A model generated the notes under the pieces. That model saw only the letters and a program-made list of their open reading frames with translations, made no database searches and was not told the origin of the DNA. From Phaeospirillum sp. (GTDB taxonomy: Bacteria; Pseudomonadota; Alphaproteobacteria; Rhodospirillales; Magnetospirillaceae), in assembly GCA_030824585.1 (NCBI GenBank), contig JAVBXM010000011.1:1-41233 (forward strand): a stretch of 41,233 bases of DNA, given 5' to 3'. The position numbers were made by a program, and so were the translations under genes. Positions 13,096 through 18,953 of this stretch are shown here, piece after piece; position 1 is the stretch's first letter, and every line of letters starts with the position of its first letter.

Positions 13096-13280
13096 TCCTT
13101 GCCCCTTTGGCGGATGCCCAGCCGTATCCGCCGAAGAAAGCATTGCTGAAGAGATTCCAAGGTGACGCACGTGTCACATTGCCGGTTCTCAGCCCACACT
13201 CCAAATGGTAGCTTCCGCGTGGAAATTCCAACTTCATGCGTTGCGCGTATCCATTGGCGGAATTGGGCGGGAAGCTATCG

Positions 13281-13937
13281 ATGACAAAGAATTTTACCGT
13301 TCTGGCCTGTGTTGCCGTGGCCCTTGTCCTTTCCGCCTGCAAGGCCGATCAGGCGGCCATGGCGCCGTCATCCACCGTTCCCGTGGTGGCGCAACCCATG
13401 GCCCCGTTCGATGCGCGGACGATCGCCGCCACGGTGAACCCCGAGGAAATCACCCTCTATGACGGCGACGACAAGAAGGCGATGCGCTATCTGATACCGC
13501 AACTGCGCACTGCCGCCCGGGCTCTCGGCTTCGGCGGCGTGGCCCAATACGCGGTCCTGCGGGGGGCGCGGGCCAACCTGCGCCTGGAAAACCGGCAGCC
13601 CCGGTTCCTGTTCGCGGTCCCCAGCAACGCCCAGCCTGAAAGCTACATCACCGTGGCCAATTTTGCCGTCCGCGACAACGGTACCCGCGAGGTCATCGTG
13701 GGCGGCGGGTTCATGAGCTATTCCACCGGTATCCACCAGGACCGGATCGTCCCCACCACCATCGAAAAGGTTGCCGACCAGTCGAAGGCGCCCAAGGGCT
13801 TCGTCCTGTACGTGGCGACCGTCACCTCCCCGCTGCCCAGCGGAGAGTACTCGGTGGTTTTCTATACCAGCCAGGTGCGTTCGATCGGCTTCTTCTCGCA
13901 TGCCCTGGACAGCTATTTCGATTTCGGTGTGGGCTGA
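13281..13937 (+). CDS. Lipoprotein of unknown function
   Basis: A 218-residue protein with a lipoprotein signal peptide (FTVLACVAVALVLSAC; lipobox LSAC with the acylated Cys at residue 20). After the Ala/Pro-rich linker comes a domain with TLYDGDDKKAMRYLIPQLRTAA and a beta-rich C-terminal half (FVLYVATVTSPLPSGEYSVVFY). No enzymatic motif is visible. It would be anchored to the inner or outer membrane facing the periplasm. ATG 13281 is chosen because it places the signal peptide at the N-terminus; an ATG at 13236 would add 15 unlikely residues. Confidence 0.72.
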   Translation: MTKNFTVLACVAVALVLSACKADQAAMAPSSTVPVVAQPMAPFDARTIAATVNPEEITLYDGDDKKAMRYLIPQLRTAARALGFGGVAQYAVLRGARANLRLENRQPRFLFAVPSNAQPESYITVANFAVRDNGTREVIVGGGFMSYSTGIHQDRIVPTTIEKVADQSKAPKGFVLYVATVTSPLPSGEYSVVFYTSQVRSIGFFSHALDSYFDFGVG

Positions 13938-15263: not shown

Positions 15264-16574
15264 CTACAATACCGTCTTCAACTCGCCGAGGAAGTCTCCC
15301 ACCACGGTGTTGAGCTGTTCCGACTGGCGGGACAACTGGTGGGCGGCGGTCAGCACGTCGCCGGCGGCCTGGCCGGTCTGGTCGGCTCCTTCCGAGAGCT
15401 TGTGGACGTTGCCGCTGACCTGGTTGGCCCCGGCCGAGGCGCGCTCCACGTTGCGGGCGATCTCGCGGGTGGCGGCGCTTTGCTGCTCCACCGAGGCGGC
15501 GATGGCGGTGGTGTAGCGGTTGATGTCGGTGATGGTGCCGGCGATGGAGCGGATGGCTCCGGCGGTGCCGGTGGCCGCCGACTGGACGGCGGCGATCTGT
15601 CCGGCGATCTCGCTGGTGGCCTTGGCGGTCTGGGTCGCCAGGGTCTTGACCTCGTTGGCGACCACCGCGAAGCCCTTGCCCGCCTCGCCGGCCCGCGCCG
15701 CCTCGATGGTGGCGTTGAGCGCCAGCAGATTGGTCTGGGACGCGATGTCGTTGATCAGGTTCACCACTTCGCCGATCTTGCTGGAGGATTCGGCCAGGCT
15801 TTCAACCATGACGTTGGTCCGGGCGGCCTGATCCATGGCGGCGTTGGCGATGGCGGTGGATTGATCCACCTGCCGGCTGATCTCGTTGATGGCGGCCGAC
15901 AATTCCTCGGCGGCGGCGGCCACCGTCTCCACATTGGTCGAGGCCTCCTCGGCGGCGGCGGCGACGGTGGTGGCGGTGCCGCTGGTGTCGGCGGCGGTCT
16001 GCTCCATACCCTGGGCGGTGGCCTGCAGTTCCGTGGCGGCGGCGGCGGTCAGCCGCACCACCGAACCGACCGTATCTTCGAAACGACGGGTGACGGTGGC
16101 GAAATCGCCGACCTTGCGTTCGATGGCGCCGGTGGCGGCGTTGATGGCGCGGGCGCCATGCAGGAAATGGCCCATCATGCCGCGCTCGACGATCCGGCGG
16201 TGGTACTGTCCCTGGGCCACGTGCTCCATGGAGGCCGACGCCTCGCGCACGAAGCTGTCGGAGCGGTCGATCAGTTCGTTGATCGAATGCAGCAATTCGC
16301 CGACCCGCCCTCCTTCGTGGATTCCCACCAGCCGGGCCTCGAAATCGCCCCGCGCCACCGCCTGCACGGTCCTCACCGCGCTGTCGATGACCCGCCGCAG
16401 CCGCGAGATGCAGACCATGGCCGCCAGCGCGGCCGCCAGCCCGGCCACGGCGATTCCCACGCTCAGGGGGGAGGCGCGGCCGGTCATGGCTTCGGCCGCC
16501 GGGATCAGGACGAACAGGGCCGCCGAGGCGATGACCGCCAGCCGGGCCCTATAGAGAGAAGATGAACTGGTCAT
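15264..16574 (-). CDS. Methyl-accepting chemotaxis protein without periplasmic domain (CetA-like)
   Basis: A 436-residue chemoreceptor. Two hydrophobic helices at about residues 9-28 and 38-57 are joined by a loop of roughly ten residues, so there is no periplasmic ligand domain. HAMP-like sequence follows (55-110), then the long coiled-coil signalling domain with the conserved hairpin tip [20 protein letters not shown] (CheA/CheW contact). Its start overlaps the upstream PAS gene by 26 bases in another frame, so the two are translationally coupled. Together they have the parts of Aer split over two chains, as in Campylobacter CetA (receptor) and CetB (PAS). It probably takes its input from that PAS protein. 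Confidence 0.9.
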
Positions 16575-17073
16575 AGCGGACGCCCTTCTCCTCGAGGTAT
16601 TTCCGCAGCAATTCGCCGGAGGCCTGCAGCCCTTCCTTGGGTCCGGCCGCCTGCTGCTCGCAATCGGTCAGGCGGCGGTAGAGGGGGATGATGATGCCTT
16701 CCAGCGGCGCGCGGTCCGGGACCCGGCGGTTGGAATGGTAGCCGACGATCGCGTGGTTGGCGTCGAAGCTGGGCGTCACGTGGGCCAGGACCCAGTAATG
16801 GTGCCCCTGCTTGGTGCGGTTGACCACGTAGGCGAAGATCTCCCGCCCGGCCTGCAGCGTCTCCCACAGCATCTTGAACACGCATCGCGGCATTTGCGGG
16901 TGGCGGATCAGGTTGTGAGGCTGGCCGATCACCTCCGCCTCGTCATAGCCGCTCACCGTGAGGAAGGTGCGGTTGGCGTAGGTGATGACGCCCTTGAGAT
17001 TGGTCTTGCTGACAATGACGTCGTTCTCGCCGAAGAACGTCTCGATGCCGCTAAGGCGATCGTCGTGCCGCAT
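16549..17073 (-). CDS. Aer-type PAS protein (CetB-like redox/energy sensor)
   Basis: A 174-residue soluble protein whose first 125 residues match the FAD-binding PAS domain of E. coli Aer almost without gaps: [42 protein letters not shown]57 and H58 of Aer are kept at the same numbers, but the position of Asp60 is Gln (RHPQMP). The C-terminal 45 residues are a charged, probably helical tail that may contact the receptor. There is no membrane segment. GGAGG lies seven bases before ATG 17073. It is the first gene of a two-gene unit with the chemoreceptor. Confidence 0.9.
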
Positions 17074-17684
17074 GGGATGCCCTCCCTTGAATAAGCACAG
17101 ACGAATTATGCATTTTCCTTGCCTATTGTGGGATGCGCTTTGGTATTGCCCGGACTTCCCAGCCTTTCGGTTGAATTAGGGTGCAGACCCGACCGCGGGC
17201 CATGTTGCGAAAGATGACGGAGATTGCCGCAAGGTGAGAAGGTATATTGCGTGTGTCGCGCAGCGCGGCGCTATATGTGGTTATCTTGGGCGGCAAGACC
17301 TGGCACAACCGAAGATTAGGTATTAATCCCATACTGAAGTCGGGCCGTGTGACGGCGGTCCTCTGCCGGGGAGGGGTCGCCGATCGGAAGTCCCGGCCTG
17401 GGCTGGCTGTTGGCCTTGCTGGCTGCCGCGCCGGACGGAGGGCTGATTCGGGAGCGCGCCGGTGTAAGGCTGATGCATTATGCGGCGTCTTCACAGGAGA
17501 CGTGGCCTCGGGTCATCGGCTATATTCGGGGTCCGGGTGGAAACGCGACTGAAGCCTGGGCGGCTCGGGCGTGTTGAGCGCCACCCGTAAATTTCCCGGT
17601 AGCTTACTGATATTGAATGAATTATCCGCCATGGGTGGTACGGATTCGACGTCCGGATGCTCTCGTTTAAGTGGAGAATTTGTT
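17074..17684. other. Divergent intergenic region, PAS gene / HD-GYP gene
   Basis: About 610 bases with no supported gene. It should hold promoters for the PAS/chemoreceptor unit and the HD-GYP gene. The 110 bases next to the PAS gene are AT-rich. I found no strong hairpin and no sigma-54 site with correct spacing. Confidence 0.45.
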
Positions 17685-18953
17685 TTGAAAATCTATTGTA
17701 AGGACACAGTTTCCACCGGGATGCACATCGATCTCGGCCGGGTCGCCCATACGGTCACCAAGGCGCTCGACTACGTGGGGATCGACGACCAGAGCCACGG
17801 CCGCCGCGTCGGCCTGATGACCCATCGCGTCGCCCATGAACTGGGATGGGACCGCGAGACGCGGCACTTTTCCCTGATCGCCGGGATGATCCACGATTGC
17901 GGGGTATCCTCGACCGCCGCCCACCAGAAGCTGGTCGACGAGATCGAATGGAAGGGAGCGGGGGAGCACTGCCTGCGCGGCGGCGATTTCCTCGAGGGCT
18001 TTCCGCCCTTCGCCCAATATGCCGGGGCGGTCCGCTTTCACCATACGCGATGGAACGAACTGCCGGACTGGCTGGACGACGGCACCAGACGCGTCGCCAA
18101 CCTGATTTTCCTGACCGACCGCCTGGACGTGGTGCGTTCCGCCTACCTCTCGACCCACCACCCCTACGAGGTGCTGCGCCACCGCGACCAGATCGTCGCG
18201 AAACTGGCCCCCCTGTCGGGAACCCTGTTCGCTCCCGAACTGTTCGAGGCGCTGAACCAGGCCATCCTCAGGGACAGCTTCTGGCTCGAGACCGAGGACG
18301 AATTCCTCGATGCGGCCATCTTCGAGACGCTGTCCTTCTGGGATCATTCCATGACCCTGGGGTTCGACGACCTTTTGGCCCTGGGCGAGATGATTTCCCA
18401 GATCGTCGACGCCAAGAGCCCGTTCACCCACGACCACAGCCTGCGGGTCGCCGATCTGACCTATGCCGTGACCAACATGCTGGGATTCACGCCGCAACGC
18501 CGGCAGATGCTGCGGCTGGCCGCCCTGCTGCACGACATCGGCAAGCTGCGCACGCCGGACGAAATCCTGGAAAAGCCGGGCGCCCTGACCGAGACCGAGC
18601 GGGACATCATGTTGCGCCATCCCATGGACAGCAAGATGGTCCTGTCGGCGCTGTTTCCCGGAACGCCCATCGACCGCTGGGCCTCGAACCACCACGAGAA
18701 GCTCAACGGCACGGGCTATCCGTTCGGCTGGAGCGGCGATCAGATCGACGAGGAAACGCGGGTGCTGACCATCTGCGACATCTTCCAGGCCCTGTGCCAG
18801 AAGCGTCCCTATCGCGGCCGGCTGCGCGCCGACGAGGTGGTGGCGATCATGCGGAACATGGTCGAGGCCGGGGAAATCGATCCCACCATCTTCCGCATCG
18901 TCGCCGCCAACCAGGACGAACTCTACAAGACGGCGACCCGCGAGGGGCGATAG
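17685..18953 (+). CDS. Tandem HD / HD-GYP protein, putative c-di-GMP phosphodiesterase
   Basis: A 422-residue protein (from TTG 17685) with two HD domains. The first (about residues 15-170) has GIDDQSHGRRVG and LIAGMIHDCGVSS with HD ligands and a later FHHTRW. The second (about 235-410) is a full HD-GYP domain: HDHSLRVADL, LLHDIGKLRTPDEIL, HHEKLNGTGYPFG and ICDIFQALCQKRPYRG. HD-GYP enzymes cleave c-di-GMP in the cytoplasm. No receiver or membrane domain is present. TTG 17685 has GGAG eight bases upstream; ATG 17730 (MHIDLGRV) is a plausible alternative with a poor ribosome site. It stands alone. Confidence 0.85.
   Translation: MKIYCKDTVSTGMHIDLGRVAHTVTKALDYVGIDDQSHGRRVGLMTHRVAHELGWDRETRHFSLIAGMIHDCGVSSTAAHQKLVDEIEWKGAGEHCLRGGDFLEGFPPFAQYAGAVRFHHTRWNELPDWLDDGTRRVANLIFLTDRLDVVRSAYLSTHHPYEVLRHRDQIVAKLAPLSGTLFAPELFEALNQAILRDSFWLETEDEFLDAAIFETLSFWDHSMTLGFDDLLALGEMISQIVDAKSPFTHDHSLRVADLTYAVTNMLGFTPQRRQMLRLAALLHDIGKLRTPDEILEKPGALTETERDIMLRHPMDSKMVLSALFPGTPIDRWASNHHEKLNGTGYPFGWSGDQIDEETRVLTICDIFQALCQKRPYRGRLRADEVVAIMRNMVEAGEIDPTIFRIVAANQDELYKTATREGR

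Follow-up and report, generated by a model that had tools for sequence, protein, structure and literature searches.

A probable CetB/CetA-type energy-taxis receptor of Phaeospirillum sp. with reversed charges at a candidate PAS-HAMP contact

A 41,233-nt stretch of Phaeospirillum sp. DNA (contig JAVBXM010000011.1 of assembly GCA_030824585.1, hereafter the window) carries two overlapping genes that very probably encode a CetB/CetA-type bipartite energy-taxis receptor, in which a PAS protein would sense redox state through FAD and dock on the HAMP region of its own CetA. Receptors of this kind are known; the testable part is a charge-pairing rule that links CetB residue 35 to CetA residue 100, with a polarity that is reversed in the window pair relative to its three siblings in the host genome. 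We establish here the gene pair, the folds of its parts, the FAD-contact residues, the shared inheritance of sensor and receptor, and the coupling between residues of the two proteins. The features concerned are the following.

16549..17073, minus strand: CetB-like stand-alone PAS protein, 174 aa (AlphaFold2 mean pLDDT 95.1)
15264..16574, minus strand: CetA-like chemoreceptor, 436 aa, with two membrane helices, a HAMP region and an MCP signalling domain (Pfam, residues 238-394)
16549..16574, minus strand: 26-base overlap of the cetB-like and cetA-like genes
16894..16896, minus strand: CetB Gln60 (Aer numbering), codon CAA
16969..16971, minus strand: codon of CetB Arg35, which opens the helix that follows the second strand, with CetA Glu100 as proposed partner
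16275..16277, minus strand: CetA Glu100, codon GAA, within the predicted second HAMP helix (89-120)
16404..16559, minus strand: CetA membrane hairpin, residues 6-31 and about 36-57 (AlphaFold2 helices 6-31 and 36-74; the C-terminal end of the second span was set by eye from hydrophobicity)
16245..16403, minus strand: CetA HAMP unit 1, residues 58-110, helix-loop-helix in the AlphaFold2 model (Pfam HAMP at 63-104)
16101..16265, minus strand: CetA second, concatenated HAMP-like unit, residues 104-158, from profile-profile alignment

The coordinates, strand and 26-base overlap given in the initial annotation of this locus were all correct, and its analogy with CetA/CetB also holds, having already been published for magnetospirilla (PMC12442639). 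A stand-alone PAS gene adjoins a receptor gene that contributes membrane helices, HAMP and signalling domain and has no sensing domain; the PAS, anchor, HAMP and signalling parts that a single-chain Aer unites in one chain are here divided over two genes in different frames. As had been described, the receptor begins with two predicted helices (6-31 and 36-74) joined by a four-residue turn and continues into the HAMP region and the MCP signalling domain. This arrangement goes beyond chance, since an MCP gene lies directly downstream of 183 of the 195 CetB-like genes sampled. The two genes overlap in 114 of these 183 CetB-MCP pairs, by exactly 26 bases in 62, under a start-codon rule that leans on a profile from the host genome's own four pairs. 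None of the five proteins flanking the window pair had a match in 11 related loci, most of which offer only about 2 kb of flank. One of the neighboring genes, divergent from the pair (17571-18953, plus strand), encodes an HD-domain protein (Pfam HD_5) resembling c-di-GMP phosphodiesterases, equally unmatched in the short flanks of those 11 loci, and a 233-aa protein encoded at 13236-13937 (plus strand) matched nothing in Pfam or NCBIfam (E up to 0.01).

Among solved structures, the PAS protein matches full-length Aer and the Aer PAS domain best by sequence. Its alignment with the E. coli Aer PAS domain runs ungapped from residue 15 to about 105 and keeps R57 and H58 in register, with Gln at position 60, as the initial annotation had stated. 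Compared with the PDB, its AlphaFold2 model fits best to 8dik_A, the FAD-bound Aer PAS domain (41% identity; rmsd 1.2 A; TM-score 0.94, normalized by target length), and next to the NifL and MmoS flavin PAS domains. Flavin-type PAS domains, with Aer in the lead, are thus its nearest solved relatives in both sequence and fold. The window CetB keeps the FAD-contact residues H53, N54, R57, F66, W70, N85, V99 and R116; five of them (H53, R57, W70, N85, R116) are invariant in 192 of 192 CetB-like rows and F66 is present in 190, while residue 54, which corresponds to a published FAD contact of Magnetospirillum gryphiswaldense CetB2 (PMC12442639), varies (S 136, N 54). Flavin is still expected in the window CetB because these contact residues are unchanged and the predicted fold matches that of FAD-bound Aer PAS; by this analogy, the protein would most likely bind FAD and report the respiratory redox state.

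The receptor was modeled with helices at residues 6-31, 36-74, 89-120, 135-295 and 300-435 (mean pLDDT 86.9), and only this secondary structure was used because pTM reached just 0.39. The Pfam HAMP match at 63-104 falls under the Pfam cut-off (E 0.023), and HAMP is hit by 19 of 30 CetA family members when E values up to 5 are allowed (best 5.3e-9). Profile-profile comparison aligned residues 58-110 with 104-158 over 49 columns (probability 94.8, E 5e-8; four control comparisons gave 0.4-0.7), and both units have Gly and Asn positions in common, a pattern suggesting two HAMP-like units in tandem at residues 58-158. The literature on CetA, in the portions available, speaks of one HAMP domain. 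Invariant columns among the 30 CetA rows include G76, R81, N99, D103, R126, G132, G135 and N145. E. coli Aer has one HAMP unit, as against the two in tandem proposed for CetA. Nine conserved HAMP residues reportedly define the CetB/CetA family, according to Elliott et al. in 2009. A CetA-like receptor elsewhere in our set (L182, 1404-3416, plus strand) is extended at its C terminus by a long stretch of about 200 residues.

The host genome encodes three further PAS plus receptor pairs, whose PAS proteins are 50-53% and whose receptors are 37-43% identical to those of the window pair. With counts that include some single-chain proteins, matches were recovered in 17 of 17 genus genomes searched (E up to 1e-30), 47 of 55 family genomes (1e-50), 58 of 385 genomes sampled from the class (1e-45) and 29 of 369 sampled from the class to which genome G352 belongs (1e-32). 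FastTree was used for all trees, with few alignment columns for the sensor. The same eight members, the window pair included, form a clade in both trees (support 100 for CetB, 99 for CetA); they come from 7 of the 17 genus genomes plus one further genome of the family. None of the six pairs that genome G006 has in the set belongs to this clade, and five CetB pairs with receptor were counted in G037. Distances in the CetB and CetA trees correlate with r 0.52 over 169 pairs, the highest of 500 shuffles reaching 0.11. Common clade membership, this correlation and the residue coupling described below concur in that sensor and receptor are inherited and evolve together.

In a direct-coupling analysis of 278 pairs (effective number 200), none of the 49,545 inter-protein column pairs scored higher than CetB 35 x CetA 100 (z 8.7), which took eighth place when all 123,503 column pairs separated by more than five positions, within or between proteins, were ranked together. 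Inter-protein ranks 2 and 3 are an expected DNA artefact, since their residues lie in the gene overlap, and CetB 102 x CetA 78 came fifth; when the analysis was confined to the first 180 receptor columns, 35 x 100 was second, behind one overlap pair. By mutual information over 168 pairs (effective number 104), CetB 102 with CetA 79 and 78 came first and second, and 35 x 100 third (z 6.7). Over the 278 pairs, the charges at 35 and 100 are opposite in 178, like in 5 and neutral in 95, yielding the lowest charge correlation (-0.75) of 12,600 column pairs. The 91 pairs added after this discovery distribute as 51 opposite, 3 like and 37 neutral, and none of 10,000 shuffles was as extreme, relatedness being ignored. 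Three runs of random re-pairing abolished it (z between -0.9 and 0.7 for 35 x 100). Re-pairing within genomes left 35 x 100 at rank 1 with z 6.4-6.7, a decrease that is only slight because siblings often share polarity. We thus consider it rather likely, from covariation, that docking includes a salt bridge between CetB 35 and CetA 100. Such a bridge would not be required, given the neutral third of the pairs; in the window clade itself, one of the eight pairs is Arg/Gly. A CetBA class with Ser35/Asn100 (L145, L150, L151, L152), neutral at the proposed contact, occurs beside charged pairs in genomes G010, G015 and G016. When the charge pair was looked for in single-chain Aers, the HAMP parts of 32 chains failed to align with CetA.

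The same charge pattern could stem from shared ancestry of a few large clades instead of contact, a reading that we judge rather improbable. Only about 9 and 10 sign changes are placed on the tree for the two positions, and independent contrasts on well-supported (starred) branches numbered 4, none of them in the same direction, which is not significant (p 0.125). Moreover, 21 gammaproteobacterial pairs are essentially of one polarity at 35 (17 positive, 1 negative, 3 neutral). Against ancestry stands the two-trait likelihood test on the tree, in which 35/100 reached a 2 delta lnL of 58.1, as opposed to at most 21.1 for other charged columns; signs change together, like-charge states being left quickly and entered slowly. 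The next-best finished comparison, at 21.1, pairs CetB 35 with CetA 93, seven residues from 100, and 30 other CetB columns scored at most 18.6 against CetA 100 (93 of 144 comparisons finished in the first run; a second run of 83 took in the remaining receptor columns beyond 250 together with those 30 sensor columns). Both residues also lie where work on Aer places the PAS-HAMP contact. The literature searched on CetB/CetA, PAS-HAMP contacts, coevolution and specificity, including the available text of PMC12442639, yielded no description of the 35/100 pair; the 2009 work of Elliott et al. lay outside that search and may bear on it.

Several pairs also coexist in M. gryphiswaldense, which has four CetBA pairs (PMC12442639). 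The 2025 study of this species names interaction specificity among bipartite receptors as an open question and could not explain why CetB2 or CetA2 are not replaced by other paralogs (PMC12442639). In the host genome of the window, residues 35/100 are Arg/Glu in the window pair and Glu/Arg, Asp/Arg and Asp/His in the siblings, so that, of the six possible mispairings of the window CetB or CetA with a sibling, five would bring like charges together and one would combine Arg with His. Across 50 genomes with at least two pairs, 138 cognate pairs comprise 93 opposite, 1 like and 44 neutral, and 304 non-cognate combinations comprise 164 opposite, 40 like and 100 neutral; both polarities are present in 14 of these genomes. 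The charge rule amounts to one bit at most, because more than half of the non-cognate combinations are still opposite and only the 40 are like. As read from the alignments, it can separate polarity classes, not siblings of the same polarity. We propose only tentatively that reversed polarity helps to keep the window pair apart from its three siblings, and with equal reserve that 35/100 could be a flippable salt bridge serving as a one-bit address, the window pair being the reversed channel among four. The second coupled site, CetB 102/CetA 78, combines Ser with Phe and other residues with Leu, and may add to the insulation rule or only mark a deep split.

The initial annotation had placed its weight on Gln60 as an altered flavin site. 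Aligning Aer and CetB proteins and scoring position 60 confirmed that the Gln is real and private to the window CetB within its clade, the other seven members all carrying Asp60; the functional weight given to it was not sustained, since the position is free in CetB, with 90 of 195 proteins lacking Asp. In full, the 195 CetB-like proteins, which include one Aer-like-looking PAS-only row (L276), show D 105, E 33, A 31, H 10, Q 4, S 3, G 2, N 2 and T, L, W, K and Y once each, as compared with D 85, H 3 and E 1 in 89 single-chain Aer-like PAS domains. Two of the three His60 rows of the latter set are in the host genome itself (L005 and L263, on contigs C5 and C56). Asp60 occurs in 31 of 90 CetB-like rows from genus and family, which are free of position-60 pattern bias, in 14 of 27 from the class, and in 59 of 77 from a pattern search for related loci, a subset biased because the search patterns specified D, Q or A at 60. 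Changes at this position numbered 61 in 192 CetB rows and 5 in 91 long rows, under an earlier length-based split that left three CetB rows among the long ones. Gln60 is thus a real, private and probably tolerated substitution at a relaxed site.

That Gln60 instead weakens or alters FAD binding, resulting in a shifted redox potential, another cofactor or a flavin-free adaptor, appears unlikely to us. This reading can invoke the Aer D60N variant, which does not bind FAD and is CW-biased (PMC13059710, citing other work), and the retention of Asp60 in nearly all single-chain Aer-like domains and in every close relative of the window CetB. It has to face non-Asp residues in 59 of the 90 genus and family rows, the intact remaining FAD-contact residues of the window CetB, and an Aer PAS structure for which D60 is not among the listed FAD contacts (PMC9668731). 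Coupling of position 60 to CetA is also weak, with best z 2.1 and rank 628 of 29,319 by mutual information (168 pairs), and best z 3.8 and rank 127 of 49,545 by direct coupling (278 pairs). Gln60 as an altered flavin site was therefore rejected as the main point, the position being relaxed, and so was position 60 as a specificity residue, strong coupling with CetA being absent. We also rejected the natural G28/V65/V99 set as a sufficient rule for the freedom at 60. These residues suppress Aer folding defects (PMC2628428); G28 is found in 195 of 195 CetB rows, V or I at 65 in 190 of 195, and A65 in 81 of 89 Aer-like rows, and the rule is insufficient because all four Aer-like rows without Asp60 have A65. 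Tolerance of Gln60 in CetB is a caution against transferring Aer mutagenesis to CetB proteins.

The window pair resembles CetB2/CetA2 of M. gryphiswaldense in its overlapping cetB-cetA order, small PAS protein and receptor without sensing domain, and all eight FAD residues published for CetB2 (PMC12442639) have counterparts in the window CetB. CetB2 binds FAD with a midpoint of -274 mV against Ag/AgCl and interacts with CetA2, and CetBA2 drives an oxygen-repellent response (PMC12442639). The CetB of genome G037 that fits all eight CetB2 FAD residue numbers exactly (L180) has Asp at the position of Gln60 and belongs to a pair with Glu35/Arg100, the opposite polarity to that of the window pair, which lies in another clade. 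Campylobacter jejuni CetB/CetA likewise divides the domains of Aer over two proteins and has a two-helix membrane hairpin, and its CetB shares the natural G28/V65/V99 with the window protein (PMC2628428, PMC3558505); it differs in having Glu at position 60 (PMC2628428) and a second PAS protein, CetC, encoded upstream of cetAB, that can replace CetB (PMC2628428, PMC3558505). E. coli Aer likewise combines a PAS domain of this fold (41% identity, TM-score 0.94) with a membrane anchor, HAMP and a signalling domain; it is a single chain, with Asp60 and native Ala65 and Ala99. By description, Amb0994/Amb0995 of Magnetospirillum magneticum AMB-1 also comprise a CetA-like receptor adjoining a PAS gene and, unlike the window pair, are a proposed magnetoreceptor (PMC12442639).

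The host had been taken for a probable magnetotactic or microaerophilic alphaproteobacterium; magnetotaxis finds no support in a domain search of its genome (99.94% complete), where the magnetochrome (MCR) domain was not found, as against 11 of 17 genus genomes that have it; the Amb0994 setting of a host with magnetosome genes is thus not reproduced by this search. Absence of MCR from the host genome (G000) may reflect a non-magnetotactic member or an assembly gap. A role of the window pair in magnetoreception, as proposed for Amb0994/Amb0995, is very improbable, its likeness to the CetA-like Amb0994 with adjoining PAS gene being outweighed by a host genome without magnetochrome domain, by the lack of that domain in 4 of the 7 genus genomes with the window subtype, and by M. 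gryphiswaldense pair deletions that left magnetic alignment intact (PMC12442639).

We return to energy taxis as the preferred reading. From published work on CetB2/CetA2 and Aer, the small cytoplasmic CetB would bind FAD and sense the respiratory redox state, and dock at the HAMP region of the cognate, membrane-bound CetA through contacts that may include the 35-100 salt bridge; CetA would then relay this state to the chemotaxis kinase CheA, and the reversed 35/100 polarity might help to separate the window pair from its siblings. FAD binding, redox sensing and signalling to CheA are here inferred from these analogues. Pair specificity can be tested directly on one residue pair that follows a clear sign rule. 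If true, the 35/100 contact would mark where the redox-sensing PAS domain touches HAMP, and would allow the deliberate wiring of two-part receptors.
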